Source of the DNA: Owenia fusiformis
Lineage: Eukaryota > Annelida > Polychaeta > Sabellida > Oweniidae
Length of the DNA: 64,000 bases
Reading direction: 5' to 3'
Assembly: GCA_903813345.2 (NCBI GenBank)
Contig: CAIIXF020000006.1
Span: 15,320,348-15,384,347, forward strand
The translations under genes and the position numbers were made by a program. Positions 33,013 through 62,554 of this stretch are shown piece by piece. The notes beneath the pieces were generated by a model, which was given only the letters and a program-made list of their open reading frames with translations, did not search any database and was not told the origin of the DNA. The stretch's first letter is position 1. Each line of letters opens with the position of its first letter.

Positions 33013-36000
33013 TTATACTGTGAGGGTATTCCCATGTCTGCTAACTTTCTTTTGTTTGGCTTTTCCTTGGCTCAAATGACTCATTGTACTGGCTCGTCTC
33101 TCCATTATTTTACCGAATCTTGATTCAACACTGAATCGAATCTTGTCTTCCATGATTGGGTAACTGTGCATCACCTCATCTAAGTCTTTCTTAGCAAGCA
33201 CGAACATGTCTACATGACTGATAGCCTGGACAGACTCCTGTCTGGGGATATCATAAATGATGTTGATTTCACCAAAGAAGGCTCCTTCAGCCATATATTC
33301 ACTCTCACTGCAGCTATTCCCTGTAACTTTCACCTAAAATGGGCCAAATCAAAACATTTAGAGATCTACTCTGCCATGTTTTTTCTCTTTGTCTATTGAA
33401 TGCTGGTCGAATATCATGAGAGGAATGTGAACTTATATAGTGACTATAAAGATACTGTCTTACCTCTCCTTTGTAAATGTAGTACAGTTCTGAGCCCACA
33501 TCACCCTCCCTGACAATGCAATCACCAGGGACAAACAGCATTGTGTTGATTTTCATAGAAAGAAGACGTGAGAAACTTGCCTCAGCATCTTCAAACATTG
33601 GAATCTGTATAAGACAATTATGGAACATATACAAGCTATTTATTGTATTAGGCATGCATTTACTTTCATTTATATTGACAAACTTTGTTTCTCCTTTTAT
33701 GTTGATATTATACGTAGTTTGTTTTATCCTACATCAAATTCTCTATCATGAATATACATGTATTAAAAATGTCATCGTTGAAGTGGTTTCCTTGAAACAT
33801 AGAATCAATGGACATTTCAAGAGATTATGGTTTGAAACCATTCTGATTTATCAGAGTCTCTTTTTATCTAAAGCTTGTGAGAGATCTCTATTCCAAGAGA
33901 TAGTAGAGACTATGGATCGCACTATGATTTGAAACAAAATATGGAATTCATGTATAATGTAAAGTCGTACATACTGTATCAATCATACACTTGGTGAGGC
34001 TCAGATAGATCTCAGCTAGGAATGGCTCTGGACAGTCCATCAGATTAGTCTTTACATCAACACCCTTATTCCTTGTCCACAGGTAGTCATAGTAGGAAAT
34101 AACACGATTTTGCAGGCTTGATGTCACTCCTTGGTCTACTAAGTAGTCCTATAATTTTAATATGACTGTATGTAGAGCTTAAATTCATATGATAATACAT
34201 AAAATGAATTATGAAAGTTGAGTTGCAACAAATAACTACATTTTGTTTACAATGGTGCAAATGCAACATCAATCTGTTAATAATATAAGTCAAAGAACAT
34301 CAGTTTAGATGATACATTCTGGTTTTAGTACTTGAGGTCATGTACATATCCTGTATTTACACTTTCTTACAAGATAAATCAAAAGAATTTAATTTTTTGT
34401 GGTTGATTTTCTTCTTGTTGTTCTAATGTTCCATTCACTGACCTTTATTGCCTCTAGTTTGTTGTCATAGTTGACTCTCTGTGTTTCTGCATTGGCCAAT
34501 GTAGAAGCAACGTTTCCAAGGATGAAACCAAACAACAGTTTACCAAGCACCATTACAAAACTTGCAAATACTGGAATGGAAGAATGTAAGAGAGTGAATA
34601 TTTACAAGTCAATCTCAGGTCCTGTTGTAAATGGAACAGAGCAGTCAACAGATGTGACAGGGACAATTAAAGAAAACAACCAATTTAGCCAAGGCGACAT
34701 TATAACTTCAAATATATTATCATTAATTCTAAGAATCATAAACTAAAACCATAAGATACTCCAAATGAAAAATTGCTACTAAATCTATTATGCTTGAGAA
34801 CAATAAACTTGATGAATATTGATGAAGTTATTTCATATTTAAAATTAAAGATGAATAATGTAGGTAAATATAATTTACTGTAAATAAAATATTTTACTCA
34901 TTTCTAAAAGGCTGTAGGCATGTATATCCCCATATCCAGTAGAAGTCATGGTTGCCACTGTCCAATATACACAGTCACAATATTTCTGCATTGGTGGGAT
35001 GGATGGAGAAGTAAGATCTATAAAATGAATGAACACACATTGGATACAAAGAATTATTGTCATTGTATTGAGAAAAATGTGAGAAAGATGCATTGAGAGT
35101 GAGACAGATAATGCAAATGAGATAAGTCCAATGCAAGTGAAAAGATCTAACGAATACAAGTGAACAAAGGTGTGATGCCAATTATTTAAATGAGAAAATT
35201 GTGATGCCAATTATTTAAATGAGAAAGATGAGATGTAAGTAAGAAAGATACAATGCAAGTGAGAAAGATGTGGAGTAAGTGAGAAAGATGTAATGCAAGT
35301 GAGAAAGATATTGAGTAAGTGAGAAAGATGTATTGCATGTGAAAAGGATGTGGAGTAAGTGAGAAGGATGTAATGCAAGTGAGAAAGATATTGAGTAAGT
35401 GAGAAAGATGTAATGCAAGTGAGAAAGATGTGGAGTAAGTGAGAAAAATGTAATGCAAGTGAGAAAGATGTAATGCAAGTGAGAAAGATGTGGTGTAATT
35501 TAGAAAGATGTAATTCAAGTGAGAAAGATGTGGAGTAAGTGAGAAAGATGTAATGCAAGTGAGAAAGATATTGAGTAAGTGAGAAAGATGTAATGCAAGT
35601 GAGAACAATATTGAGTAAGTGAGAAAGATGTAATGCAAGTGAGAAAGATATTGAGTAAGTGAGAAAGATGTAATGCAAGTGAGAAAGATATGGTGTACGT
35701 GAGAAAGATGCAATGCAAGTGAGAAAGATATGGTGTGAGAAAGATGTAATGCAAGTGAGAAAGATGTGGTGTAATTGAGAAAGATGTAATGCGAGAAAGA
35801 TATGGTGTATGTGAGAAAGATGCAATGCAAGTGAGAAAGATATGGTGTGAGAAAGATACAATGCAAGTGAGAGAGATATTGTGTGAGAGATATGTAATGC
35901 AAGTGAGAAAGATTTGGTGTGAGAAAGATACAATACAAATGAGAGAGATGCAATGCAAATGACCAAATTACAATGAAAGTGCAATGCAAGTTAGAAAGAT

Positions 36001-37704
36001 TTATGAGTCTCAGAATGGTTAAAGTTGTAAGTTGTACCTGAATGTTGGGCCCATGATCCTGCAGTACATACACCTCCTGGGCATGCAATGAAGTACCAGA
36101 CACAGCCACCCACATGAATGATTAATAGGAGCTGCATGACAAACTTCAGCAAACGCACCATCAGCATGCTACAATAATGAAGTAACATAAAAACATAGCA
36201 AGGGTGTACTTGGAGGCTGACAAGTGGGGAATGATTTATCATTTTTCAAAAATGTCATATAGGTCTACAAAATAAAAGCCAGGGAGCTCAAAATAGCATC
36301 TTTTGCCCCCTTTTTTAATTGAACATAATCATAATTCTAATTAAGTTACAAGTCTTACTTGATGTTAAGCTCCTTTTCCCAACTTGCAAAGAACTGGGAC
36401 ACTCTGTAGAATCTTATTATGTGTAGAAGTCGCAGATAGGAGAGTATCCTGAATCTTTCGTCCCCATTGAATGCCAGACAGATGATGTCAATGGGGAATA
36501 TGGCAATGAGATCAAAGGCAAACCCATTGAATCTACGCATATAATGCTTGAAGCTGATCTTAAAATCTGTTACCATATCGCCATAGGTATCAATATAGCT
36601 CATGTGGCAATTGATGAAAATCTGAAAATGCATTTGGCTACATCTGTAAAAGACAGTGGGTACATCTGTAGATGGCGATATATTTGCATGCTGGCAGTTA
36701 TTTTCTTTGATCTTTTTCCTTGTTCATGTGCAGTACATGTCTTATCTCCTAATATATTATGCAGATCATGGTAAAATATATACAACTATTTTTACACTGA
36801 ACAAGCATTATGAACAACACAATTCGGTTCATAATTTACAATCTAATTAGGCAATGGTAACTTACATCATAAAGGAAGATGGCTTCACAGGTATAGTTGA
36901 TCACATAGAAAACAATGCTGTGATGCTGATATGCAGCCTAGAAAACAACAAGTTACATCTAAATAGGTTATCTACATCATTTCAAGGGCATTTTTAGAAC
37001 TCCCTTTCCCTGTTTGAAATAAGCTAAATGACAATGTACATATAATATTTCAATGTTTTATTCATATAATTAGGCATAGACTGAGACATTATGCGTTTAA
37101 TTAACATGGACGCATTGAATGCATTCACTGCACATTCATTGCATAAGTTTTCCATATAAGTAGCATAGAAGTACAGTAAAGTACCTTAGTTTGTTCAACC
37201 TTACCTCATAAGTGATGGTCCAAGCAGTAATAAGAATCAACAATGATATCAGTCTCACATGGACCCTTGCATATGTCTTGTTTGGATTAATAGTAAAACT
37301 ATTCAGTTTTGAGATTCTGGTCACAATGTTGTTGAGTCCTCTTGCAAAACTACCCTGTCTGATCTCTACTTCACTATCATCTGGCTTTTTGTCATCACCC
37401 TCATTGTTATTGATGTTATCTTCATCATCGTTGGCACTAAGATAGTTGTACATGTCCCCATCACTGTCCTCAGTGAAATTACTGTCATCATTGTTGTTGT
37501 TTAAGTCATCATCATTGTCTGTATTACAATAATGACAGTTCATGTTGTCATGCCAACAATTGCTGTTGTTATTCTTGTTGCTGCTGCTGTTGTTATTAGA
37601 GTTATTTGTTTCATCAGGAAGGTTTGTTGTTATATTAACAACAGCCTCCACAACCTCATCTTGTTCTTCTGAAACCAGTTCATTATGAATTTCAATTTCC
37701 ATGT
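33013..37704 (-). CDS. CNGK: CNGK repeat 4 (acidic linker, S1-S6, C-linker, CNBD4, C terminus)
   Basis: Exons 30-38: 37704-37205, 36937-36866, 36621-36359, 36168-36038, 35017-34898, 34570-34443, 34148-33975, 33604-33464 and 33333-33013. The first exon encodes a roughly 100-residue Asn/Asp/Ser-rich linker (NNNSSSNKNNN, DNDDDLNNNNDD) before S1. The S4 region is LSYLRLLHIIRFYRV. The pore reads MTSTGYGDIHAYS. CNBD4 holds GEINIIYDIPRQESVQA: the Arg (2166) is kept but Gln-Glu-Ser replaces Thr-Ala, suggesting weak or no nucleotide binding. The tail is basic (GKAKQKKVSRHGNTLTV) and ends in TAA. Confidence 0.93.
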
Positions 37705-40700
37705 CTAAATTAGTGTATTTTTGCCAGTGACATTATCAAAAGGGCAGTGTAGGGTTTTGGCAATATTTAGTTACACAAAACAAATATTTTTTAGAAGCAC
37801 TAATTTTGCATCCTCGGTTGCAGTGTTTAATGTAAATGCAAAGTGTATGACAACATTTTCTTTGGGTGCTTTGGAAATGAACAATGTGGAGCTGACAAGT
37901 GAGAAGAATGCAAAGGGTTACTCTCCAATTAAGTGACTAACAGTACCTCAACAAAACGAAAAATTGATCGAGAATAGTATTTGTTTTAGATTGTACCTTG
38001 GGTTATTGTAGAATCAGTGTGTGGCTTAATCAAGTGGACTGATGGTGGAGGCTCAGGCTTTGGTTGTGGGGGTGGTGGCTGCATATCAAATAAATATTTT
38101 TACATTTTTATTTCATATCATACCTAAAATACACATGACAAGGTCTAAAGCATTGTTCACTCTTTTGTTAAAAATACAACGCAGAGTTTAGAAAATAAAA
38201 AATAAAGGTAACTTTCCACTTACATCAACAAAAACAAATAGTTAATATACATACTGGTAAATGTTTCCAGGCCTTTTATGTTGTGGTGGATCATTTATAA
38301 TGCATTGCTTACTATATTTATTTTAGCTGCACTCCTCTTCTTAGCCTGCTCTCTTCTCTCCTCTGCTGTCTGCAGCACCTGTTCACGTATGGCAGGATAG
38401 AATGCCAATACCTCATCAAGATCTTTCTTGGAAAGCACAAACACATCAGCATTGGTGCCTGCTCTGGAATCAAATAAACTCAAATGTGCTTCAGCGATGA
38501 CATTATTTTTTTCATCACTCAATTTGATTGTGTTTTGTTAAACGACTAGTGTTAGATATTGCATTGTAATTTGTACCTTATGGATGCAGTTCTAGGGCAA
38601 CTAAACAACAAAGCAACTTCACCAAAGAATCTTCCAGGCTTCATAGTGTCAAATATCATTGTTCCATCCTCTGACACCACATCTACTGAGCCACGATGTA
38701 TGAAGTACATCTAGAAAAGGAAAGGCATAATGTAGCCAGGCGAGAGACAAATTTTACCCAAAACCATTTTCAAATTTTTTTCAATTGAAACTGTGAAAAT
38801 AAGGTCCAATAGTAGTATTATATCCCCTGTAGATTGCCTCACTAATTCAAATTAACATCTCCTACTTTTTAATTTTGACTATGGCATTAATTTTTAAAGG
38901 ATTTAAGTCCAGGGCTCGATGAATTGTGGATGATTTTAATCATGAATGTCTTGTTTTAAGTCTTTGAATGAGAGTGGTAGCACAAATCATCCCTATTCAT
39001 TCTACTCCCTTTATTGAATAAATACTACCATTACTTTTTTAATTTTGACTATGGCATTAATTTTTAAAGGATTTAAGTCCAGGGCTCGATGAATTGTGGA
39101 TGATTTTAATCATGAATGTCTTGTTTTAAGTCTTTGAATGAGAGTGGTAGCACAAATCATCCCTATACATTCTACTCCCTTTATTGAATAAATACTACCA
39201 TTACTTTTTTAATTTTGACTATGGCATTAATTTTTAAAGGATTTAAGTCCAGGGCTCGATGAATTGTGGATGATTTTAATCATGAATGTTTTGTTTTAAG
39301 CCTTTGAATGAGAGTGGTAGCACAAATCATCCCTATACATTCTACTCCCTTTATTTAATAAATACTACCATTACTGAAACAATTGCTGTAAAGGAAACTA
39401 GACTTACAGTGCTTCCAATGTCAAACTTTCTCACAACATATTCTCCCTTCAAGAACAGCATTGGCTTGATGCATCGGGACAACATTTTTGTGAAGCCTAC
39501 TTCTGTGTTTTGAAAGAGTGACACCTAAACGATTCTAGCATAAATAACTTCATATATTGATCGAGTAATACTGTATCAATTAGGGTGGCTCAAAATAATT
39601 TTTTTTTGGAAATGTTATGCTCCCTACGTGAATCGAGTTGTATTTTGGGGTTAATATCACCTGTGATTTTTTTCAAATTTTTTAGTCAACTTTTAGGGGT
39701 CCCCCACAGCCTTTGAAGTTTGCCCATAGGCTTAACATTAGTGGGCGTCGCCCGAAATTGTACTTTGTAGAAGTTTTCTTCTAGAGTGATTTATATATGT
39801 TGTTTGAAGAAAAACAACATTGTATATGATATGATTAGATGTTTAAATCATCATATTACTCAGTTTCATCATGTGAACTTATATAAAAGGTTATACTTAC
39901 AATATCCTATTAACAAAATATTAGGTACATTCGACCAGTATAATTATTTGAACAAGTAAAGTTTTAGGGAATCATATCTCATATATGATTTGGTAAACTG
40001 TAAAAGGTATATTCATTCTTGACATTTGATGTTTTAAACATGGTTCAGATCAGCTTTTCTTATATGTGACACTCTTCCTCTAAGATCTGAGAGTACAACA
40101 CATACACTGTCACGATGCGCCACGTCACAGGTTATTTGAGATATTCCTGCAGATGATACCAGAACTTGAGACTGTGAAGAGGTGCTGTGGTTGTCAAGGG
40201 GGCACTTAGGAAATACGATCCGTAGAGACAGACCACATATCCCACAAGTTGTGTTATCCTCTGCAGTTGCTGTGGAGTAAGTTGGACAAATAAGTGACTG
40301 AGCATGAATATCTTCAAGAGGTAGAGACTCTTCCCCATGAACCTGGTACAGTGGTAGGCTCCAGGTTGGTTGCAGCTCTTCGCAGTGTAAGACAGAGCAA
40401 GAGAGGAGAAGCAGGAGCTTGCTACAGCACTGCTCAACATCCCACGGCCTGTACAATTTGCATCTGGCAAACCAGGACAGCCTGAATTCAACCCAGTTGC
40501 TGCTCACTTAGGCAATGTTAAACCATCACGAGCAATGTTTGTAACTGAGAGATCTTGGCTCTTATCGTGACGATGTATGTGTTGAACGCTCAGAGCAACT
40601 TATGTTCAAACCCAGAATTTCTGTCAAGACCTGCATTCTGTTAATGATCCAGCTGAACAAGCAGTGAAGCTGGTACAGGAATGCTCTCAAATGACCCGTG

Positions 40701-43700
40701 ACGTGGCGCATCGTGACAATGTATGTGTTGTATGCTCAGATCATAGAGGAAGAGTGTCACATATAAGAAAATCTGATCCGAACCATGTTTAAAACATTAA
40801 ATGTCAAGAATGAATACACCTTTTACAGTTTAAACCATTAAATGTCAAGAATGAATACACCTTTTACAGTTTAAACCATTATAATGACAATACCAAATCA
40901 TATATGAGACATGATTCTCTAAAACTGTACTTGTTCAAATAATTATACTGGTCGAATGTACCTGATATTTTGTAAATAGGATATTGTAAGTATAACCTTT
41001 TATATAAGTTCACATAATGAAACAGAGTAATATGATGATTTAAACATCTAATCATATCATATACAATGTTGTTTTTCTTCAAACAACATAAATAAATCCT
41101 TCTAGAAGAAAACTTCTACAAAGTACGATTTTGGGCGACGCCCACTAATGTTAAGCCTATGGGCAAACTTCAAAGGCTGTGGGGGACCCCTAAAAGTTGA
41201 CTAAAAAATTTGAAAAAAATCACAGGTGATATTTACCCCAAAATGCAACTCGATTCATGTAGGGAGCATAACATTTCCAAAAAAAAATTATTTTGAGCCA
41301 CCCTAGTATCAATTCAGTCCTTTTATACGCCTTTTTTTATATTTTTGATTCCTGTGAATGAAGCTTATTTATATCGTGTGTGGTTGTTACTCAGGGTTGT
41401 ATATATCTATGAATTGATTTGATTTTACAATTTGATTTATATACTAGCCTAGTACATTTCATTGTTCATTGTTGACTAAAACAAAATGTGATGCAATATA
41501 TTAAACTTTCCAAGCCACCATGAATAGGTGTTATGAGCGAACTCAATTTCACTTTTAATGGTATAAATGCAACATACTTTTAATTTGACAGACTAATCTG
41601 TATGAGTTTTATGCTTTCAAAGATTATAATTATGAATTGTCATCATCAACCTACCTTGCTGATAAGATCCTCATAAAGACTAAGTGTGACATCTCCCCAA
41701 AGTGAGATTGGCAAGCCATCAAAGATTTTCTCTGGATCCACTCCTTTAGTTCTTACCCACACATACTCGTAGTACTTTATAAGTCGATCTTTTATTTCAG
41801 AATCCATCTTCGTATCCTATTTGGGAAAATAGAATGACAGGGAAATAGTTTTGTTTTCTAGAATTTATTTAACCTCATATGCTTATTTTGCTCTAACAAA
41901 ATTTGGTAGGTACATAGCAAAGGCCTCCAATAATCAGTTCATCCCGATGTGATAGATCAAAGGCCTATATACCTATGGACTGATTTTGATGGCTGTTGCA
42001 TTATCATTATACGTATAGTTGATCCTAGTGATATGTTTCACAATTACCTGTGCAAAATTATTAATAGAATCTAGCTTTTCTTGAAATCTGGCTCTCTGGG
42101 CATCAGCGTTGGCCAAACTGGCAGCAATACTAGCGATAATATAGCCAAAGAACAGGACGCCAAGGATCATGATGATGAGAGACACGATCATCTCTATCTC
42201 CGTGTGAGCATTGATTTCACCATAACCCACAGATACTGATGTGGCCGAGGCCCAATAGAAACACATGACATACAGCACGCTAGTATCTACTGTACCTAGA
42301 ATAAGAGAGCACAATACTAAAGTTAGATTCTGAATACTTTACACACAATTCTTGACCATTTCATCATACTCAATTGTGTTGAATCATAGACTTTATAAAA
42401 AACTCTATAAAAGACTATACATAAAAAGTAACTTACTGATATCAATATTGAAGTCGGATTTGACAATCCATGAGTCTGCTTTGCACTTATGTCCACCACT
42501 AGTAGTTATGTAGTTCCCTACAACTGCACTTAGCTCTGGGATACAAGCCATCATAAACATGGCACATGTCAGCCAGTTTAAGAAGATCAAAATATACACC
42601 AAGAATTTACCAGATCTGAAAGGTATGAGAAATAACATTCAACTTGTCTCTGTATAGTCTTTGTTGCCCCTTTATGGCTTTAATGTACATTGGTATACTG
42701 TATATCATCATGCTTTGAATGCTAGCCTGAATATTTCTCTCCATTTTCTACAAGTTCATGGATTTATATAATTATTGAATATCATATCATTGTATTGAAA
42801 ATTATAATGTCTTTTTTACTTTCCAATGGTATATAGTAAGTGAATGAATAAATGATTTCGTAAATAATTATATTAATGCTTAGAATTTATAGAAAATACT
42901 TAAATACTTTAAAGGGTATTTTTATTGTCCCACCCTGCAGGGCTGTACATCTATTGAAAAAGAAAAACCTGTGTGTTTTGAACATTTTTTTGCCAGATTA
43001 TCTCCAAAGCAATCAATTCTTGACAAATATCCTGTCCTTCAAAAAAAGCTTATTAAGAATTATAATAAGTCACAACTGTTTCAATAGAGGAGGTGATCAG
43101 TATCTCAAATTGACCATTTAAATATTTTTTGCAGGTAATATAAACATAAGCTGCTTACTCTTATGAGGCAGTTGCAGAAAATCTGCAAGAAATCTCCTAT
43201 CTAGTTCAACGTTCACTAGAGACAGGATAATTCAATTGATTTTGCCAAGATTTAGTGTTCACTGCCCACAGTTAAAGTAGGTGTTTGCTACAGAATTGTA
43301 CTTTAACATGGGAGTCAATGGGAGAGGTTTTGCCCAAAAATTTCACTGTTGATAGGTCTGTAGCTGTTCCCTAGAGAGATGCGTTTGTTCACTAACTCAG
43401 CTTTTACTGTATTGACATAGTATTTACATATAGATTACCTTATATTACCAGTGTCTTTCTCAACAGAAGACTCTATATAGTTGAAGGCAAGTGGAATACG
43501 GTAGACCTGGATCAACCTGTTCAGTCTGCATAGTGCAAGTAGATGTAAGCATTCAGCTAGTGAAAGAAAAAAAGAATGTTCAAAAATGTGTTCTTGGCAA
43601 TGGGCAGAATAAAATCTAAGGCATTTGCCATTAATCATAGAATCAGGGTCTTCATTCCAATTACAATATGAAAAACAAAGCAGAAAAACAACAATTTGCA

Positions 43701-49700: not shown

Positions 49701-52700
49701 AAAATTCTCTAATATTGCAGGTATTTGGGCATTCATTTGTGGATGAATACAATCATAGTTTTATTGATTTGCATTGCGAAACTTTTGGAATCAAGATTCA
49801 ACGTAGTTTAGCTGAAATCGGGGGTTTATCGAAAACGAAAGAATCTTGGCAACCATCTTGAATGAAGCTAACTGCAGTTAGAGTCATCCAGCTGTGGAAC
49901 GGTGACCTTGACATAATAGTGGACACCTCTCCCACCACCTCGAGACAGATGGTTGGGTTTTTCCAAATGAGTCCCTTTAGGTATAATACATGCTATGTAA
50001 CATTGAGGTATAGTATATTGTAATTTTCGATAGGCACTGACCTCAGTGAATCAATTATTTTCTATTTCAAGGCATTATTCGAGTTTGCTTTTCTTGCTGG
50101 GTTCTTAGGTTTTAGTCTCTTCCCTTTGGTGCTTGTGCTTAGATTTTCACTAAATATTGCACTGATTTTGATGAAATTGGTATCAATTAAAGAGAATTAG
50201 GGAGTTCATTAGGAGAAGTTACATTTATTCATGTTAGCTTATTTGAATATTGTTTGTGACACCATAAGCTCATAATTGCTACATAGTGAAATCTTTTTTT
50301 GTAAAAAGTGTTCCACTTGCGAGGTGTTTCACATCAGGGATTTATAGTACAGATTAAAAGATAAAAGACAAATGTCAAGACTTTTATACGTTTATTTGTC
50401 AGAAAATTTCGAGCAGGACATTGACAAAATGTATCTATGTGTGCAATTAATTTATGCATATCTTGAAAATAATAGGTTGTTCATTAAATCAACTTCAAAA
50501 TGACAGTTTAATTTATGAAAATGAATAGGCTAATCCTGTGGCCGACAGCCGATAGTTGCACAAGTGAACACAAGCTAAGATTGCAATTTTAAAGTTTCCT
50601 TTGTCATTTCAAATCTATTAAGTACAAATGTATAGTGTAAATGGGGATTTTTTGTTTATTTTCTGAAAACGACAGTGACATTGTCTATTGGTATGTTTAT
50701 ATCTTAATCAAATATAACGATTTGAATGGCCTAAGTATGTTAACCCTCGTGTGTACATTGGGGGTCGGATTTTCCCCGGTACTTCTCTGCCAAGAAAATT
50801 TGAGGTGATTGGGGGTAATTTGGCTGAGTTAGGATGGTGGGAACTTTTTCAGATATTGCTAGAAAATCACACCATCTCTATGGTTTCATAGAATAAAAAT
50901 ATAAGCTGGCTCTTTTTACTTTCTTTTGGATAAAGACCATATAGTATACTAAATACCTTTACAAATAAGGCATATTACAAGGTAATCTGACTTTTATTGA
51001 CTGAGATATGAAGTTTTCAATATTATATTGTCTGGGTTAGGAGGATGTAGAAGAGAGATGTTGGGAGTCCCCCATTCGAAAATTTTGATATGATCATGTT
51101 ACATAGCATGTATTATATTGCACAGTATATAGCATGGTAGCATAGCATGTACCAAGGTAGCATATCATGTAGCATAGTAGCATAACATATAGTAGCATAA
51201 CATGTAACATAGCATGAAGCATGGAAGCATAACATGTAGCATAGCTGGTAGCATAGTAGCTTAACATGAAGCATAGCATGTAGCATAGTAGCATAACGTG
51301 TTGCATAGCATGTAGCATTGTAGCATTACTTATTGCATAACATGTAGCTTGGTAGCATTACTTGTTGCATAATATGCAGCATAACTGGTAGCATAGTAGC
51401 ACAACATGTAGCATAGAATGTAGCATCGAAGCATAACTTGTAGTATAGCATGTAGCATAGCTAATACCATAGCAGCATAACATGCAGGATAGCGTGTAGC
51501 ATAGTAGCATAACATGTAGCATAGCAGCATACTTTGTAGCATAGTTAGTAGCATGGTAGCATAACATGCAGCATAGCATGTAGAATAGTAGCAAAACATT
51601 TAGCATAGCATGTGGCATATCAAGTAGCATAGCATGTAGCATAACATGTAGCATAGTAACATAGCATGTTGCATGGTAGCATAACGTGTAGCATAGCGTG
51701 TAGTATAGTAGCCTAACATGTAGCATCGCATGTATCATAGTAGCAAAACATTTAGCATAGCACGTGGCATGATAGCATTACTTGTAGCATTGTATGTAGC
51801 ATAGTAGCATTGTACGTAGCATAGTAGCATAACATGTAGCCGGTAGCATTACTTGTAGCATAGCATGTAGCATGGTAGCATAACATGTTACATAGCTAGT
51901 AGCATTGTACCATAACATGTAGCATAGCATGTAGCATAGTAGAATAACATATAGCATAGCATGTAGCATAACTTGTAGCTTAGCATGTATGCATGGTGGC
52001 ATAACAGGTAGCATAGCTAGTAGCATAACTTGTAGCATAGCATGTAGCATGGCACCATAACATGCGGCATAGTAGCATAACATGTAGCACGATAGCATTA
52101 CATGTAGCATAGCATGTAGCATGGTAGCATAATATGTAGCATATTTAGTAGCACAGTAGTATAACATGCAGCATAGCATGTAGCATAGTACACGTGAGTA
52201 GAATAACATATAGCATAGCATGTAGCATCAGGCCTGTCAACTGTCCCGCAATTTGCGTATTTGTCACGCATTTGCTGAAGAATTTGAAGTCACGCCAGTT
52301 ATTTTTGCATGACAAAAAATGTCACGCAAATACGCATTTTACCTGGTAATTGTCAAGCAAAAATATTTCTGTAGAAAAATTTCTAAAAAAGATCGTCTAC
52401 ACAGCAAAAATACGAACGCCGGAAAAAAACGTACGCATTTCGTTCGGACTTTTCACGCGAATTACGTATATGTCACGCATTCCGTTCGAAATTTTTCGTA
52501 GCTACCCCCCCCCCCCCCCCCCCCCCCCCCCGTTTATGGATGTTTGAAACGCGAGCGTAGTGAGCGCGAAAAATTTGAGGTGTTCAAAATCTGGCAAGAT
52601 GTAATAAAATTTAAACCAAGGTGTTCAAAATTTGGATCAAGATGTTCAGATTTGGACCAAGGTGTCCACATTTTGAGGGGAGGTGTTCAACATTTCCAAG

Positions 52701-55700
52701 TCACTCAGGTTAGGTGTTCCCAAGTTGACAGGCCTGTAGCATGGTAGCATAACTTGTAGCATAGCATGTAGCATGGTGGCATAACAGGTAGCATAGCTAG
52801 TAGCATAACAAGTAGCATAGCATGTAGCATGGTAGCTTAACATGTAGCCTAGTGAACATGGTAGTGAACAATAGTAAACATGCTAGTGAACATTAGTGAA
52901 CACGCTAGTGTGCAATAGTGAACATGCTAGTGAACATAGTGAACATGCTAGTGAACAATGGTGAAGATAAGTGAACACGCTTGTGAACATGCTTGTGAAC
53001 ATAAGTGAACATGCTAGTGAACATAAGTGAACATGCTAGTGAACATAAGTGAACATGCTAGTGAACATATGTGAACATGCTAGTGGACATAATTTAACAT
53101 GCTAGTGAACAATAGTAAACACCTAGTTAACAATAGTGAACATGCTAATAAACAACAGTGAACGTGCTACTCAACAATAGGTGGCATGCTAATGAACAAT
53201 AGTATACATTACATAATCGTAAACAATAGTGAACAGGCTTCCCAAAATATTAAGAATTTAGGATAAAATATTTGCAAGGGACTTAACTTTTTTGCGAGGT
53301 CTTGGGTCGACAAGTATTTACAAATGGTTATTCTTTACACTATGACCCTTTGTTTGATATACTATATGTCTTTATTTCTAAATATTCAATTTCAAATTTC
53401 AAACCCGATTTGATTTGCGAGGGCTAACATTTTATGCTAGGGTCGTGGATTGACAAGTAATAATAAATATCTAATCTATGAACGATGCGCTTTCGTTTGA
53501 TATACAACACGACTATATTTATTTATCTTCAATTTTTAACCTATTCCAAACCCGACCCACGGGCCGTCATTAGACTCGATATGGAAATAAGCTCATCCGG
53601 GTACTTTTCCTACATCTTCTATTCACAATTCCAATTCATTTGAAATGCTACACAGCCATACTCTAGCTAGGCAACTTAACTTTTCAAGATTTTTAAATGT
53701 GCCCCTTCCCCGGGCGCTGTCGAGTGACATTACCATCGTCATACATATCACTCGTGTTTGAATAGGTCGGGGGATTCCGGAAGTCGTCAACACAGTCAGA
53801 ATGAGACAATAATGACCTCAAAATACAGATAGACAACCGATAAACGTGTAGACGTGAACACCTTTTCACAATGTATGGGGAGGGGGGCACGATCGAGGGT
53901 GTTCCATAGATGGCGCACTCTCAGCCATCTCGTAACGTTAGTACACCTTCGGTACAGTCAAACCTACATTTAGGCACTGGTTACCTCTCGGTATTTTCCG
54001 TAATTCTACAAGAAAAGCCCTATACTACTCTAGCCTACTTTGTACATTTCTTTCCAAACCGCCATTCTGATTTCTCGCTAGAAAATGTCAACTTAAGGAT
54101 AACAACAAGTTCTGGTTGATACAAAATGAGCTGATAACTTAGACTTTTGAAAATTGACTTATAATATTACTGTGACCCAAATGCAGAACCCTCCAAAAAT
54201 ATCCTTTATTATAACATATGTAATCAGCTCAATTTTTATTTCAAAATAACCTCATGAACGTTTATTACGAGGGAAAGAATCCATTCAAACTGACCTTGTC
54301 CAAGTATGCCATTAAGTGAAACTCCTATATGTTATATACATAAGAGTATTTGTTACTTATTACAGATCTCTACAATACTTGCAATGCCTTGAAATAGAAA
54401 TACCTTGATTCACTGAAGTCAGTGCCTATCAAAAATTACAATATACTATACCTTCACAGTTCCACAGCTGGATGACTCTAACTGCAGTTAGCTTCATTCA
54501 AGATGGTTGCCAAGATTCATTTTTCGATAAATCCTCGATTTTAGCTAAACTACATTGAATCTTGATTCCCTATGCGAATTAATAAAATACGATTGTATTC
54601 ATCCACAAATCAATGCCCAAACACCTGCAATATTAGAGAATTTTAGAGAAAACAGCTTCACTTTATAGAATGACTCTAAACATGGGCTTTCAACCAGCTG
54701 TAGAACAGTGACCTTGACATAATAGTGGGGTTATTCCAAACGAGTCCCTATTTGTCATTCGTAAGTTGACTGGGGCAAAGAACATCAAAGTTATGTCCAT
54801 TTTTAGCGATGCCAAAATGAACATACACGTAGTATTTCGTTTTCTTGGATTTGCAATCAGATTGATTGAAGCACTTTCGAAAAATATAAACTAACTTTTT
54901 ATTACACGTCACCTTAAGAAAAGAACATACTTACGCAATCAATAAAGAAACTCTTAGATTGACACATTTGAAATAGATAACAATTGTCTTAAAGATGAGT
55001 GATATTTGCGATTGATTTGCGGCAGGGTAAGGGCTATCGCAACTATTTTGCCAGTTGCGATTGGAACATCTTTCAAATTTGCGATTGTGTTGCGCATAGC
55101 ATACAGGCTTAGAGGATGATACAAATCCTGATTGTGATTCTCAAAAATTGCTTTGCGTTATGTTGCACTTGCGAATCAGCATTGCGATGAGCGGGTGATG
55201 AGGCATTATAAGTTTTCTAAAGGTACAAAATTAATTCATATATCGTAACTGTACAGTACCATACTCAATCAATATACTCATTTATTTGAATATATGCAAA
55301 ATAATGGAGTGATGACGTCTCAATCAATATGCAAATAAGCTAATTTGCATAAAAGTTAGTTCCAAAACTAGAACTTTTAATTCTCTTTAATTTAATACTA
55401 ATTTCATCAAAATCGGAGCAATATTAGTAAATTTATGCATGATAAAACATTTTCTGCTTATGAACACCATATTTTTGTGGTTACTATGGAAATGGGCATT
55501 TTAGACACATTCGGTCCAATTTTCATAATTGCTAACAAGTGGATCTCACATCTAGGCACCACAAGCTTTCCAACGGTACCAAATTCATGAATATGTTGCA
55601 ACTGTACATTACTGTAATGAAATAAATATACTCGTTTATCAAAAAATATGTAAAATAATGCATTGATGACGTCACAATCAATATGCAAATGAGCTAATTT

Positions 55701-58700
55701 GCATAAATGCTATTTTCAAAAATGGGACTTTTAATTCTCTTTAATTTGATACCAATTTTATTAAAATAAGAGCAGTATTAGTAAAGTTATGCATAAAACA
55801 ATTTTCTGCTTATTAACACCATATTTTGTGGATACCATGGAAACAGGCGTTTTAGACACATTCGGCCCACATTTCGTAATTACTAACAAGTGGATCTCGA
55901 ATTTAGGCACCACAAGCTTTCCAATGGTACCAGATTCATGAATATGTTGCAACTGCAAATTACTGTACTGAAATAAATATACTCGTTTATCAATAAATGC
56001 GCAAAATAATGCAGTGATGACGTCACAATCAATATGCAAATGAGCTAATTTGCATAAATGTTATATACAAAAATCGAACTTTTAATTCTCTTTAATTTGA
56101 TACCAATTTCATTAAAATCAGAGCAATATCAGTAAAGTTATGCATAAAAACAATTTTCTGCTTATTAACACCATATTTTTGTGGTTACCATGGAAACGGG
56201 CGTTTTAGACACATTCGGCCCACATTTCATAATTGCTAACAAGTGGATCTCAAATCTAGGCACCACAAGCTTTCCAACGGTACCAAATTCGAGAATATGT
56301 TGCAACTGTACATTAAAAAGTACTTTCCTGGCACTTTTGAGCCATCATTCCGACTACCTATAGGGGTATATACAGGATAATAGTGTAAGCAACAATTTTA
56401 CGTCCTCCAAATGCTTCAATTTTAAAACAAATGTGAATATAAAAGGCGCAAGAACCCTACACAATTTGTCTCTCTGATAGACTGCGAAAGACATCCGTCT
56501 GTTCAAATATATATAGTAGTATAGTGTATTGGGTAACTATAATCACTGAAAAGTCGTAATTGTCAATTATTACCTTGAAATCAGGAGTTTTGATTCACAT
56601 CCTTGTTGACTGTTAAACCTAACTCATTCAAATTCCACTAAATGTATAATTATGCCATTTTAGGGTTCGATTTTATAAATGCAACCCTTGCGAAAATATT
56701 ATTGAAATCCATACATTATAAAAAAATTATGGACGTTTTTAAGTGCCACCCTGTGTATTCATCTATCTATACTTACTGAAGGGAATTGCATGCCTGAATG
56801 TACCAAGCACAAGCATACATATGAGACAAGATAGTGATGTAGAAGGCGAATTTGAAAATACGAATGTTTCCAATAGACACGTTGATAGATTTTTCCATTT
56901 TACTTGTCAAGTGCACAACCTATAAAGAGTACTAAAAGTTAAATACTGATATATTTCTAATGTTTTATTAACAGACTCGAAAATCGAGGAAAGAAATTAA
57001 AAATATCAATATGATTTGATAAGGTAGGCCAATGCCTGCTAATATAAGACATTCAGTAACAAGTGTTACCCCTAAACCTGTAAACGACCCTTTTGGATAT
57101 CGAATATGTCACAATTTAGCATTTCATATTTGCATGTTATGCAATACAACAGGAAGAGTGAAAAAAGGCATTAACATGCAAAATGACACCACCACCGAAC
57201 ACCAACCGCCGAACAACGTCAACAGAATGCAACTTGTCATCTAAAAAGAGTCCATAAGACCGTCGCATTTGTTTTTGTTTTTTTATTGAAATATAGTTTG
57301 TATTTCTGCTCAGTCCACGCTACATTACCTTGTATATTTTCAGAAGTCGGTTGAGCCTTAAGAATGCGAACAACACCCATTTCCAATTTTCATCGGTAGC
57401 TGTGAGGCAAAAGATTTCAAGAGGAAAAGCTGCAGCTACGTCAAACCAAAACCTGTAGGAGCTGATGTATCTCTTCACGATTAATTTGAAATCTGTTTCA
57501 ATGCCTGAAGTATTGTAAATGATTCATTTTATAGGGATGATCCTTCTCTAACCGAAAATGGAAAGTACGAATGAGTGTGAGGCATTACCCTGAACGTCTT
57601 TATCAATGGAATTGTCCTTACGTGTTGAATATGAGTAAAAGGGAGGGAATAGAACTGAAAATAATGTTTCGTGCATTTTAATAATGAAGGGCAAACATAG
57701 CAAAATGAATTGAATTTTATTCATCATTCACCTATAGCAATATAGTACCTAGAGTAGAGTAAATATAATATCAAACCCATTTACCAGTGTCCACCACAAT
57801 TCCAGTTTTGAAGTGTATCACAATGTCCATGACCAAGATGATATCAAACAAATAGGAAACCACCAGGAATATGATACCAAGCGTGCTGTCAACGTAACCT
57901 AGAATTAATTATATTAATTATTTGTTATTACATGTATTATCAGCGTGTGTTTAGTACAAAGGTAAAACGATGAACCCATTTCGCTCTAATCTGATTTTAT
58001 ATTATATCAATGTGAGATAAACAATAAAGCTAAAGTACTATTTAGCGTGTTCCTCATAAATATAAGAAAAATTGTATATTCTCAAAAGCAAGAAAATATG
58101 GTATTGATGAAATAAATGCTGATGTTTTAAATGAACTAAAAGAATCATGTCACTTATACTCTACAATCTTTACGAAAAACACCCAAATTATGATGATTAT
58201 AGCACTACAATGGATGAGACCTTTGCCATTAACTCGAAATACAAAGGTATGGATTTTTGTGATATCATTATAATCCACTCATTTATATCAATATCTGCAC
58301 TCATTCGCTACGCTCATGATCACTTGTCCATATACTGATATCAACTCGTGGATAAAAACGATATCAAACCATGGAATACTTATTCCATGGTTGCAAGGAT
58401 ATAGATCACGTAAAGATGTATTTGATATGTGGATAAAGATATCATATTTTAGGAAAAAACTCCCCAAACCATCGAATATCTTTTCTTAAAAAAGTGTTAT
58501 TCGATGGTTTCAAAAGTTATATTCGATGATGGTTTCGATTTTTTCTGCGCACTCACACTTCACAGTGAAGATATCAATATCCAGTCTTGGATATAAATTA
58601 TATTTTTCCAAAACCATAGGCTATTCCGATATTTCTCATTAACACTTACCGTGTCTCGGAGAGTATGCAGTAAATGCTGCCATATAAGTGTAAAGAAAGG

Positions 58701-61700
58701 CAATCAATATTGCAACAACTGAGACTGTTTTCTCCCAATTCCTGTAGAACTTTCCCACTGGGTCAATGTACGTGTTACGTATGTACTCCATGTAACCCTC
58801 TTCATTAGTATCTTTCTGAAATTAGTGAAATGTTTACAATTCAATAACAGCCATATGGTAACCAACACAATTGATGTACCCAATGGACGTGCTTTTATAT
58901 TCGTAGATGATAAAATGTCAAAACATGCACTGAACTTCATTTTTCTTTTTCTCTTAATCTGATGCTATTCTGCAATAATATCATCTTAGTTGATTTTACC
59001 TGATCTGTAAAATCCCCTTGTTCTTCAGAAATGGGCATCAGTTCCAGTTCATCATTAACAGATAATGAGGTCCTGCGATGTGTGTGAATTGCACTTTTGT
59101 GTTGGGAGTTGGCGACAGGGCGATCAGCGGTCATCTCTGCGAAGGCCTTATGCGATTCCCTATGGTCAGAAGTGAGATCACTTTTTGGTGCTTGCACAGC
59201 CTAGAAATTATGATTATGTCTAATAAAGTATATTTATTGAAGTTCAACATTCTTTATCGTATTTGTCCCAAATCATTATACTTTACAGTGACCAACACAT
59301 ATTGAATACAGCCAGACACCATACTACAAATATTAATATGTAGATCTATATATTACACGTACAAGCTAGTTTGCAGATTGAACAGGATCAAGGCTTACTT
59401 TGAAATGGACATCATCGGCAGCTTTTGGGATGTCAAAATCGTGAATGTCATCTGCACCACTGCATCTAGTTTCTGCTGCCACCTGAAGCTTGGGTAATAC
59501 TGCAAATAAAATTTAGCTAGTGGTACAAAAAATCAGCTTCGTGTGACTATATATCGTTTTTATACATTTTATGTTTTGTTGTAGTGGTTAATAATCCGTT
59601 TCATCATATAGGTTTGAGACCAACTCGATATTTTTTCCAAAAATAATTTACAACTGGAAAATATTTACATTGGTTCACTCCATTGACGTTTTGGCTCTTT
59701 GGTTTCAGTCAATGTTCATTCAAAGTTGATTGGAGGTATTTTTACATCTGGCTGCCTGTTGTCTTATTCTATTACTTGTTTTGAAGTAAAATGAAGAAAG
59801 AATTTGTAAAAATATGTATGCTATGGATTTCTCCTTAAAAATATATGATTTTGGAATTTAGGTATAGACTTATGCTGGTGGTTGCGGTCGTGTTGGGGTA
59901 AAAGGAAGTTCATACACGTACTCACAAATCATGCTAACGGTTGATTTGATATGCAAGAGGTTTAAGAACTACTCTTGTTAACGTTTTTTCAATTACTTCT
60001 GTTATATAACATCAGGTCTTGTTTTCATGATTCGATCAACGTGTGTAATGTCTCTTTTAGGCTTTTTAATTTTATTTATTCGGTTTCTTTTATGTATGCT
60101 TTTAAGTTTAGGTTCCATCAGCCATCACAGTATGTCTCCTGTTAGTCATTCTTTCAATCTGATAACTACTTACTTTCGGGATAGTGCGACAATACCAAGT
60201 TCAGATCAGACTTATCCAATACCATGATGTCACAATGTGTTGCAGCTCGAATGGTTGCGGTTCGGGGCAAACTGTATATCAAACTAACTTCCCCAAACAG
60301 TTTACCAGATTTGAGAACAGCGATGGGAGTGTCATCGTCATCTTCAGACAGTACCTGATAACGTTTGAAATTCAATTTGAATAATATGCGTGTGCCTATG
60401 CATACTGTGTAAGTGTCAAAATTAAGAGTCGTTGTATTTGTAATGATCATTAAAATGTATATTGCGAAGTATAAATCTCATAAACCATTTTAAAAAGATA
60501 GCTCACCTCAACTTCCCCTCTATGAATAAAAAACATCTGATGTGCAACATCTCCTCGACTCACGATGATTTGGTTTGGTAGGAACATCTCCGGCTTGATA
60601 CTCATTGCCAGCATTCTCAAGAAGCCTGGGTTCAAATCTTTGAATATGGGAGCCTGGAAAGAAAAATATATCATGGTAAACACAATTCGTCGTTTCATAA
60701 GTAATCATATGGATCGATTCCATTGGTATACTATGGTTGTCAATGGAACGAAAATAAGGTTTAATATTATCATTATCCCTTTATTTGACTTTTTAAGTGA
60801 AAACATAAATATATCATTTGAATAATCAATTTCTACGATTTTATATCAAACGAACACGAATGATGGAACAATCCAAAGAAACATTCATACTTGCATACCT
60901 TTTGAATAATAATACCATTTATAGTGTATGAAAGTTCTGCCAAGAACGTCATTGGCAGGTCACTGAACAAGTTTTCAGTTGATACACCTTTCTTTCGTAG
61001 CCACAAATATTCGTAGTAGCCAACAACTTCTTTTTGTAGGTCCTGACTGACACCCCAATCTTGCTGAAATCAAATCAAATGAGATATTACAGAAATCATC
61101 ATGACTAATTAAATATTCACACATAGCTAGGCATGATATATCGAATTCTAGTATTTGAATAAGCTGCATCTTAAGATTCCAACATACTACATGATGGATA
61201 TTTTCAGATTCAGTGAAATTTCATCAATATCATAGTTTTAAGTTGGCAGTTGAGTGAGAACCTATAAAAAACTTTAAAAATTCAAACCTTACCATATGAT
61301 CTTTAATGGCGCCTAGCCTGTGTAGATATCTTGCTCTGTTTGTGTCAAAATTTGTCAACATTGACGTCATACCACCCAGCAACATCCCAAAGAAGACTGA
61401 TATTCCCGCTAACATTCCTATAACTGAATACCACTTTTCGTTTAAATTAACTGGGTAGATGTCACCATATCTGAAAAATAAGAGCAGTACCTTTCAGATA
61501 ACGTTGGCAGCTCCACCCGTCTTATGTACTAATGGTATGACTGATAATAAAACTGGCATAAATCTTTTACATCAAAGCTTACCCAGTAGAAGTGGCAGTT
61601 GCCATAGCCCAATATAAAGACACTACATAAGTTGTCATTGCGTCAGCTTGTTCTAGGTTTAGTCCGAATGAAGGATGCTTTGCCCAACTGCCATCGGTGC

Positions 61701-62554
61701 ATGTTCTTGTCATCCCCGCATGCATCCCTTCGCATGCAATAGCGAACCAACCACAGGTCAAGGCATGGGTTGTAAAGAGACATAAAACTAGGTATTTGAG
61801 GGCTCGAATGATGATAGTATTCGAACCAAGTTCAGCTTCCCTGTTATCTGAAAAGTATTCACATTGGTTAATTCTACTTTAGCTGTTAGTATTATTCAGC
61901 TCTATGATTTTTTGTTTGACTGTTTGACTATTTTAGACTGAGGTAGAATGTTAATTGCTCTACGTTAAGCAGTCGTGTGTATTGCTTCGCCTAAAAGCAA
62001 TACACAAGAAAGAGGTGATACAAACCCTATAAATAATTAAAGCACTCCTACTTACCAAAAAAAGATGGGATCTTATAGAAGCGAATATATCTGTTTGTTC
62101 TCAACTGGGTTAATGTTTTCCAAATAGGTTGTCCAACCACAACAAATGCAAACAAATCAAGTGGCAAGATTGATATGGCATCTAAAACAAACGTTGTCCT
62201 CAAATATCGTATTCCAATTTGCCTCTTTTCATCAACAAGAATTCCCTTGTCGAGATAGCCAGTGAAAAATGTAAGAATGATGTTGATTATGAAGACAGCA
62301 TCACAAAAGTAGACGAGTATCCAAAGGGTGAGAACTTGTGATGTAAAAGCCGCCATAAACATGTCTATGATGACTGAGAGAACGATGGTCCATACAACAA
62401 AGGCTTGCCATGTTCGCATAACAGGATGCAATGGTGAAATGACTCCGTTTTTCAAACATTTTGGTGCGGATGTTGAAACGTCGACTTGATTGTTCAAGCT
62501 TTCAACTACGACTGGAACTTCTGTCGACATAGCCGATATGTCGGTAAACTTCAT
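33013..62554 (-). CDS. CNGK: CNGK, four-repeat K+-selective cyclic-nucleotide-gated channel (complete)
   Basis: Plasma-membrane K+ channel opened by cyclic nucleotide. In sea urchin sperm the family member is the cGMP-gated channel of chemotaxis. Thirty-eight exons join in frame from ATG (62554) to TAA (33013), giving 2,241 codons, close to the length I recall for sea urchin tetraKCNG. The chain holds four repeats, each with S1-S6, a GYG selectivity filter, a C-linker and a cyclic-nucleotide-binding domain (CNBD): about residues 1-579, 580-1074, 1075-1598 and 1626-2241. Filters are TGYGD (255), TGYGD (812), VGYGE (1351) and TGYGD (1975). One chain therefore makes a pseudotetramer. No stop or frameshift was found. 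A classical HCN or CNG subunit has only one repeat, and CNG pores lack GYG. Exon lists are in the four repeat entries. Introns total over 22 kb and are full of repeats. Confidence 0.95.
35180..35995. repeat. 20-bp minisatellite in a CNGK intron
   Basis: The 20-bp unit GTGAGAAAGATGTAATGCAA alternates with the variant GTGAGAAAGATATTGAGTAA, forming a 40-bp higher-order pattern for much of the array. The minus strand gives spurious open frames up to 309 codons rich in Leu/His/Ser. It sits between exon 36168-36038 (S5) and the pore exon 35017-34898 of repeat 4. Confidence 0.95.
37997..44859 (-). CDS. CNGK: CNGK repeat 3 (S1-S6, C-linker, CNBD3)
   Basis: Exons 19-29: 44859-44727, 44537-44370, 43994-43834, 43556-43439, 42615-42437, 42295-42048, 41816-41655, 39524-39408, 38710-38577, 38463-38313 and 38078-37997. 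A basic lead (VRKEEREHKKQASKV) precedes S1. The S4 region is LCRLNRLIQVYRI. The pore reads ATSVSVGYGEINAH, the only filter with Val before GYG and Glu after it. CNBD3 holds GEVALLFSCPRTASIRA with cassette Arg 1543 and Thr-Ala-Ser, the most canonical of the four. Its end is a basic helix (EERREQAKKRSAAK). The last exon is a proline-rich spacer (PPPPQPKPEPPPS) that leads into the linker. Confidence 0.93.
38866..39375. repeat. Triplicated 170-bp unit
   Basis: Three near-identical copies lie head to tail, with AATTTTGACTATGGCATTAA starting at 38871, 39041 and 39211, exactly 170 bp apart. Only a few substitutions separate them, so the amplification is recent. They are intronic, ending about 33 bp from the coding exon 39524-39408. 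Confidence 0.95.
39581..41305. mobile_element. Long-TIR (foldback) hAT-like element, 1,725 bp
   Basis: The termini are TAGGGTGGCTCAAAATAATT and its inverse, flanked by a perfect 8-bp direct repeat GTATCAAT at 39573-39580 and 41306-41313. The inverted arms are about 550-600 bp each (39581-40132 and about 40700-41305), far longer than usual. The right arm contains an extra tandem copy of a 45-bp piece (AAATGTCAAGAATGAATACA at 40799 and 40844). The core (40133-40700) is relatively GC-rich with open frames up to 157 codons but no domain I recognise. It is in the CNGK intron between the repeat-3 C-linker and CNBD3. Confidence 0.9.
45089..58815 (-). CDS. CNGK: CNGK repeat 2 (S1-S6, C-linker, CNBD2)
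   Basis: Exons 9-18: 58815-58650, 57898-57785, 57492-57329, 56919-56777, 46985-46743, 46520-46404, 46219-46120, 45862-45716, 45545-45361 and 45195-45089. The S4 region is FAFLRLNRLLKIYK. S5 ends at CAWYIQACNSL and the pore reads MSSTGYGDISAS. A 9.8-kb intron separates S5 from the pore. The C-linker is split over two exons (46520-46404 and 46219-46120), unlike repeats 1, 3 and 4. CNBD2 holds GEIGMIFGDPRMATVRA: the cassette Arg (1007) is kept but Met replaces the usual Thr/Ser beside it. A charged helical segment (FTKAEKNKERLLNVQKRLN) follows. Confidence 0.93.
47340..47790. repeat. ~60-bp degenerate minisatellite
   Basis: Repeating pieces are CAGCTCCACCA, ACAAAGCA/TTGAA and GATTACAACTAAATGTAACC at roughly 60-bp spacing, seven or so copies with many substitutions. 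Confidence 0.75.
48090..50080 (+). repeat. Left arm of large inverted-repeat complex with ~352-bp tandem units
   Basis: Three tandem units of about 352 bp begin near 48101, 48454 and 48805. Each has GTTGCAACATATTC, AAGCTTGTGGTGCCTAGA, GTTTCCATGGTAACCACAAA and GCTCATTTGCATATTGATTG followed by TGACGTCA. A further decayed copy lies near 50150-50280. The arm continues into a palindromic segment (49280-49978) and matches 54380-56320 in reverse complement. Confidence 0.85.
49280..49978. repeat. ~700-bp palindrome
   Basis: AAAGGGACTCATTTGGAAAA at the left is matched by TTTTCCAAATGAGTCCCTTT at the right. The inverted match continues inward through GTCCACTACTATGTCAAGG, AGCTTCATTCAAGATGGTTG and TCACTTAGAATGACTCTAAC to a centre near 49645 (AACTGAAGTTGATGAT / ATCATCAACTTCAGTT). 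A short direct duplication of the GGCTTCACTTAGAATGACTC segment lies left of centre. Confidence 0.85.
51080..52228. repeat. TAGCAT-type minisatellite, continues at 52737-52855
   Basis: Short units of about 10-13 bp built on TAGCATAGCATG and GTAGCATAACATG run for over 1.1 kb and resume on the far side of the inserted element. The minus strand reads as Met/Leu/Cys/Tyr-rich spurious frames of up to 147 codons. Confidence 0.95.
52229..52736. mobile_element. 508-bp MITE nested in a minisatellite, with 27-base poly(C)
   Basis: The ends are inverted: CAGGCCTGTCAACT on the left and AGTTGACAGGCCTG on the right. TAGCAT flanks both sides, which fits a target duplication but is ambiguous because the host array is made of that motif. 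A run of 27 C residues occupies 52505-52531. CACGCA-type motifs recur in the left half and GGTGTTCA/AAGGTGT motifs in the right half. No coding frame was recognised. Confidence 0.75.
52850..53235. repeat. GTGAACATGCTA minisatellite
   Basis: Units of about 22-24 bp such as AGTGAACATGCTAGTGAACA with ATAA or ATAGT spacers repeat for nearly 400 bp and decay toward 53235. It directly follows the TAGCAT array and may have arisen from its edge. Confidence 0.9.
54380..56320 (-). repeat. Right arm of large inverted-repeat complex
   Basis: Reverse-complement copies of the ~352-bp unit end near 55597, 55950 and 56300 (GAATATGTTGCAACTGTACA), with CACAATCAATATGCAAA and TTTGTGGTTACCATGG in each. The inner part (54394-54830) matches the left arm at 49200-50080 in reverse, including CAGCTGGATGACTCTAACTG and AATGCCTTGAAATAGAAAT. 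Confidence 0.85.
58999..62554 (-). CDS. CNGK: CNGK repeat 1 (N terminus, S1-S6, C-linker, CNBD1)
   Basis: Exons 1-8: 62554-62056, 61847-61583, 61470-61293, 61063-60899, 60653-60507, 60354-60174, 59499-59399 and 59200-59000. The N terminus is short (MKFTDISAMSTEV), followed by S1 after HPVMRTWQAF and an S4 with spaced charges (LRTNRYIRFYKI). The pore reads MATATSTG-YGDIYP; an intron splits the first filter glycine codon. The C-linker has DLQKEVVGYYEYLWLRKKGV. CNBD1 runs from PIFKDLNPGF through GEVSLIYSLPRTATIRA, with the phosphate-cassette Arg at residue 449 followed by Thr-Ala. Exons 7-8 encode a polar linker to repeat 2 without recognisable domains. Confidence 0.93.

Follow-up and report, generated by a model that had tools for sequence, protein, structure and literature searches.

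Does one gene in this stretch of Owenia fusiformis DNA encode all four repeats of a CNGK-type potassium channel, and what would open such a channel? An earlier note had read the locus as a four-repeat channel gene of 38 exons and 2,241 codons. The window (the whole stretch analysed, 64 kb) sits on contig C6 (40.8 Mb) of a 498 Mb assembly. As described in excerpts of PMC4749565 and PMC7576140, CNGK is a K+ channel with four repeats, each with a cyclic-nucleotide-binding domain (CNBD), in one chain. Our splice model predicts a complete-looking single gene for such a four-in-one CNGK (tetraKCNG) K+ channel in a lophotrochozoan host, a reading to which we give a probability of roughly three in four.

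Gene model, pores and nucleotide-binding domains

Exon cores were picked by eye from minus-strand open frames and joined by a dynamic programme using splice-site and codon scores; in the final model the cores of the R2-R3 and R3-R4 linkers were placed by hand. Splicing and translation, the check proposed with the earlier note, yielded one uninterrupted frame of 2,199 codons over 37 exons, with zero internal stops and GT-AG borders at each intron. The predicted parts are:

33013..62554, minus strand: CNGK gene, coding span, ATG at 62554 and TAA at 33013-33015; 37 exons predicted by the splice model, 36/36 introns GT-AG
60174..62554, minus strand: repeat 1 (S1-S6, C-linker, CNBD), exons 1-6; splice model and Pfam
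59000..59499, minus strand: linker R1-R2, exons 7-8; splice model, codon test p 0.001 each
45361..58815, minus strand: repeat 2, exons 9-17; splice model and Pfam, exon 14 weak (codon test p 0.23)
56776-46986, minus strand: intron 12, 9.8 kb, within the S5-pore turret of repeat 2; splice model
44727..45195, minus strand: linker R2-R3, exons 18-19; support is weak, with codon-test p 0.08 and 0.19
38333..44537, minus strand: repeat 3, exons 20-28; splice model and Pfam
37304..37668, minus strand: Asn/Asp-rich linker R3-R4, occupying the start of exon 29, whose acceptor is uncertain; codon test of the exon p 0.001
33013..37303, minus strand: repeat 4, end of exon 29 through exon 37; splice model and Pfam

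Start and stop matched those of the earlier note exactly, but the counts differed and varied with the intron penalty: with a penalty of -6 the model grew to 39 exons (2,282 codons), and with -9 or -12 it had 37 (2,199). Because the lower penalty yields the larger count, the 38 exons and 2,241 codons given earlier fall within the uncertainty of the linkers. Each exon was scored in a leave-one-out codon test, with stop-free intronic segments as background: 27 of the 37 exons reached p<=0.025 and the remaining ten lay between p 0.032 and 0.23, values that are somewhat favourable since the codon model was trained on exons picked by the same programme. Codon usage looked coding-like in exon 29 and in both exons of the R1-R2 linker, but not clearly so in the pair that makes up the R2-R3 linker. 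When the cores of the R2-R3 linker were removed, both of its exons were recovered at a penalty of -6, and exon 17 joined exon 20 directly, in frame, at -9. Some splice sites scored poorly, chiefly those of the R3-R4 junction (donor score -2.8, acceptor -1.4) and the exon 33 donor (-3.3); about 20 bases beyond the poor donor of exon 28 there is an alternative GT. An extra R3-R4 linker exon, proposed by the first splice run, is possible at 38078-37997. For repeat 2, a 179-nt exon at 47684 and a GC donor were tried and dropped, an in-phase GT donor after 56777 being preferred.

The HMM search suggested for the claim of four ion-transport domains and four CNBDs bore it out. All four repeats passed the Pfam thresholds for Ion_trans (E 2.7e-15 to 2.4e-26), cNMP_binding (E 4.8e-14 to 6.8e-18) and Ion_trans_2, and pairwise identity among them was 27.9 to 33.5%. 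The four GYG pores reported before were also recovered, the selectivity filter being GYG in every repeat. Filters and phosphate-binding cassettes lie as follows:

61455..61590, minus strand: selectivity filter R1, STGYGDIY, interrupted by intron 2
46865..46885, minus strand: selectivity filter R2, SSTGYGD
42216..42233, minus strand: selectivity filter R3, SVGYGE
34920..34946, minus strand: selectivity filter R4, TSTGYGDIH
60244..60297, minus strand: phosphate-binding cassette of CNBD1, FGEVSLIYSLPRTATIRA
45438..45491, minus strand: phosphate-binding cassette of CNBD2, FGEIGMIFGDPRMATVRA
38460..38626, minus strand: phosphate-binding cassette of CNBD3, FGEVALLFSCPRTASIRA, interrupted by an intron
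33223..33276, minus strand: phosphate-binding cassette of CNBD4, FGEINIIYDIPRQESVQA, with Gln-Glu at the Thr-Ala position of CNBD1 and CNBD3

Every CNBD retains the cassette Arg, which is followed by Thr in CNBD1 and CNBD3, by Met in CNBD2 and by Gln in CNBD4; a Thr after this Arg would favour cGMP. Between the end of S5 (Ala-Cys) and the Tyr-Trp of the pore helix we counted 39, 30, 48 and 31 residues in R1, R2, R3 and R4, a series of long, short, long and short turrets in which those of R2, R3 and R4 are crossed by introns that could conceal an exon. A GT donor further on, which would lengthen the R4 turret, was looked for and none was seen in the 80 bases inspected. The predicted protein suggests turret differences between the repeats of Owenia CNGK, contrary to a review that, in the part available, describes CNGK channels without such differences between domains (PMC6259924).

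Relationships, gene structure and shared introns

We built an unrooted tree of 14 sequences over 405 columns. Its members were the four repeats, three CNGA sequences from the PDB, the genome's four CNG sequences, HCN4 and the genome's HCN (both partial) and SthK; other species' CNGK, KCNH and plant channels are not among them. The four repeats were split from the seven CNG-type, two HCN and one SthK sequences at 97.2/96 support. The grouping with HCN or classical CNG that would have spoken against the earlier reading did not appear, and that reading, a four-repeat CNBD K+ channel in one chain, is supported. HCN channels are alike in having six transmembrane segments (6TM), a CNBD and GYG, but they carry one repeat per chain and a CIGYG filter and fall on the other side of the split from the four repeats found here. 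CNGA and the prokaryotic SthK/LliK-type channels share the C-linker/CNBD fold and similarity over S4-S6 and provide the best PDB matches, CNGA3 for R1 and R4, SthK for R2, and 5v4s followed by SthK for R3; no chain named CNGK appeared for R1-R4 among the PDB matches listed. These channels too have a single repeat per chain, and the tree sets them apart from the four repeats; the CNGA sequences used lack GYG. Where a classical CNG has a single repeat, a non-GYG filter and a place with CNGA, the Owenia gene has four repeats, GYG and a separate position.

How the repeats pair among themselves was compared by topology tests, with AU p of 0.416 for 13/24, 0.393 for 14/23 and 0.0488 for 12/34; AU thus narrowly rejects the last of these, while none was rejected by KH or SH. 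The published pairing, with repeats 1 and 3 related and 2 and 4 related (an excerpt of PMC7576140), is on these sequences neither favoured nor rejected by the tree, and the placement of introns gives no decision either.

These results bear on two other ways of reading the gene. Two neighbouring two-repeat genes, R1-R2 and R3-R4, could form a dimer of dimers: the codon test gives the R2-R3 linker exons some of its weakest values, these exons are skipped at -9 when their cores are withheld, and reading through the exon 18 donor meets a stop just past 45060. However, GT-AG sites join R2 to R3 in phase with or without the linker exons, the distance from the last CNBD2 exon to the first R3 exon is only 823 bases, and the CNGK channels described in the available text of PMC4749565 and PMC7576140 are four-repeat; we judge separate genes for the two halves very unlikely. 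Less probable again, and in our judgement very improbable, is that four tandem one-repeat CNG or HCN genes were joined wrongly by hand. The repeats' best PDB matches, among those listed, are indeed CNGA or prokaryotic CNBD channels, yet the linkers can be spliced in phase to give a single frame, every filter is GYG, and the tree places the CNG and HCN sequences of this genome apart from the repeats.

We next turn to the introns of the preferred single four-repeat gene, 34 of whose positions fall on the repeat alignment. An intron at column 398, in phase 0 between C-linker and CNBD, is common to all four repeats, and one at column 447, also in phase 0, is common to R1 and R2, that of R4 lying two columns off. 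Exact coincidences numbered 7, of which 6 are pairs at column 398, compared with 0.28 on average, and at most 5, in 5,000 simulations. Inspected by eye, the place equivalent to column 398 is uninterrupted in the genome's four CNG exons that run from S3 to the CNBD, in the CNG exon on C4 and in the HCN exon. Because the intron is common to the four repeats and the frame is unbroken in the genome's CNG and HCN, we favour a single intron-bearing ancestor for the four repeats, and the shared intron can serve as a marker for the origin of the repeats.

In a genome search in which only the best candidates were scored, the CNGK gene held 19 of 31 matches with the R3 query and 19 of 29 with the R4 query, and no second four-repeat set was seen in the genome among these candidates. 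The non-CNGK loci were read, leaving out matches on C7, C9, C8:6727620 and C10:21151; they comprise four CNG genes, another CNG on C4 represented by its CNBD part, one HCN and two CNBD proteins that are not channel-like (L006 and L008). The four CNG genes (L002-L005; C2, C11 twice and C6) are of the CNG alpha type, with the S3-to-CNBD part in a single open frame. L008 (C6:34267000-34276900) contains, at 1078-3293, a CNBD piece GSLAVLTGEPSFFTTRARTDVRIILISKNDFYG in many tandem copies, mostly 110 bp apart; we take this gene to resemble a neuropathy-target-esterase type protein.

Predicted gating and sperm-pathway partners

Sea urchin sperm respond to cGMP with opening of CNGK and hyperpolarisation, followed by alkalinisation through SLC9C1 and opening of CatSper (excerpts of PMC6660944 and PMC4749565). 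A single cGMP at CNBD3 gates the sea urchin channel, and alkaline pH opens the zebrafish channel, whose R3 C-linker carries a 42-residue insert, according to the available text of PMC4749565. The Owenia gene resembles the sea urchin sperm channels (ApCNGK, SpTetraKCNG), a likeness drawn from their published description in that same excerpt, in its four 6TM-CNBD repeats per chain, K+-type filters and R3 C-linker without an insert, and also in having SLC9C1 and CatSper as candidate partners; it differs in its lophotrochozoan host, and its CNBD4 cassette reads PRQESVQ. With zebrafish DrCNGK it shares the four repeats and a CNBD in each, but neither that channel's R3 insert nor its missing R2 cassette Arg (PMC4749565, excerpt). 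In that stretch of the C-linker, R1, R3 and R4 of Owenia align free of gaps and R2 has three additional residues.

From the absent R3 insert and the R-T cassette in repeat 3, we infer that the Owenia channel would be gated by cGMP and not by pH as in fish. A zebrafish-like CNGK gated by internal pH would accord with the deviating CNBD4 cassette (PRQESVQ) and with Met in place of Thr in CNBD2, and CNBDs are no proof of ligand gating, as zebrafish CNGK has four and answers to pH (PMC4749565, excerpt). Against this, the R3 C-linker insert is absent, CNBD3 and CNBD1 retain R-T, the cassette Arg stands in all four repeats whereas zebrafish has lost that of R2, and the assembly holds SLC9C1 and CatSper auxiliary genes of a sea urchin type pathway. 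We regard pH gating as rather improbable.

For the cGMP-gated channel, the proposed sequence of events is as follows. The four linked 6TM-CNBD repeats would fold as a single-chain pseudotetramer whose four GYG loops form the K+ filter. Binding of cGMP at CNBD3, and possibly at CNBD1 too, would open the pore, and exit of K+ would hyperpolarise the sperm. This hyperpolarisation could activate the voltage-gated exchanger SLC9C1 and alkalinise the cell, alkalinisation would let Ca2+ enter through CatSper, following the sea urchin model, and HCN might restore the membrane potential. Sperm expression, K+ selectivity and ligand of Owenia CNGK are presumed by analogy to be those of its relatives. Because R1 and R3 are alike as a pair in turrets and R-T cGMP cassettes, two gating sites rather than one may apply. 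On this reading, which we hold less likely than not, the channel can be pictured as a 2+2 pseudotetramer, with long turrets (39, 48) and R-T cassettes in R1/R3, short turrets (30, 31) and altered cassettes in R2/R4, and the C-linker/CNBD intron as a relic of a one-repeat ancestor. Owenia CNGK permits testing whether CNBD1 besides CNBD3 can gate.

Candidate partners were found in the same assembly. SLC9C1 lies on C295 as NHE, voltage-sensor (VSD) and CNBD pieces, all on one strand. The NHE piece matched sea urchin sperm NHE at 4e-23 versus 4.9e-11 for the next protein. The voltage-sensor piece alone matched T-type Ca channels (1e-14) better than sperm NHE (1.2e-8), so the SLC9C1 call is based on the combined pieces; and since C295 is only 25 kb, assignment of the gene to the host is less secure than for genes on large contigs. 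CATSPERB matched at E 1e-66 at C5:4551305-4552072, within one uninterrupted frame of 1,148 codons; the gene is perhaps intronless, contrasting with the many-exon CNGK. CATSPERD is probably present, with a match in one exon on C4 (E 4e-5). The HCN exons matched HCN4 at 1.3e-105 and have the filter CIGYG.

The earlier description of such channels as rare proved too strong: CNGK is listed from choanoflagellate, sponge, sea anemone, sea urchin, acorn worm, amphioxus, tunicate and fish. It is an already published family, of which the Owenia gene is a good new example and not a new kind of channel. In the available text, the published CNGK tree set names no protostome (PMC4749565) and PMC6259924 names no annelid CNGK; PMC6660944 implies that Mollusca may possess CNGK. 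Among the matches listed from the open PubMed Central literature, nothing on point was found for lophotrochozoan CNGK or CatSper. Excerpts of PMC6660944 place Mollusca among groups with sNHE and without CatSper, and Brachiopoda among those with both; elsewhere the paper lists Mollusca with groups that keep CatSper. The presence of CNGK, SLC9C1 and CatSper auxiliary subunits in a lophotrochozoan would fit a sea urchin type sperm chain in the bilaterian ancestor that survives in some protostomes.

Other features of the window and genome

Downstream of CNGK on the same strand we observed a gene for the ciliary protein BBS2, a BBSome subunit (window 600-4906, minus strand; BBS2_GAE and BBS2_N matches). 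Exons of a DUF2152 protein lie at 18710-23115 on the plus strand, one matching at 6e-26 and one weakly at 1.3e-4, below the cut-off. Rfam at gathering thresholds gave no match in the 64-kb window, and a genome search for COX1, meant to reveal the mitochondrial code, likewise found none. Intron 12 is swollen by an inverted-repeat element:

48090..56317, no strand assigned: inverted-repeat element in intron 12, ~8.2 kb, with ~1 kb arms, each of about three 351-bp units, flanking minisatellite-like DNA

Both of its ends begin TTTAATGTACAGTTGCAACATATTC, and its longest open frame, 149 codons, lies inside the minisatellite. Across the genome the arm recurs, with at least 108 matches (best 40 of 522 candidates scored), and at least 11 other places carry a pair of arms in opposed orientation, spanning 6.7-11.3 kb in total. 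Elsewhere in the assembly, the homeobox exons form a single run at C1:17.97-18.47 Mb. One of them has KLTGP after the homeodomain, as in Lox5, and two resemble Lox4 and Lox2, signatures that put the host among the Lophotrochozoa.
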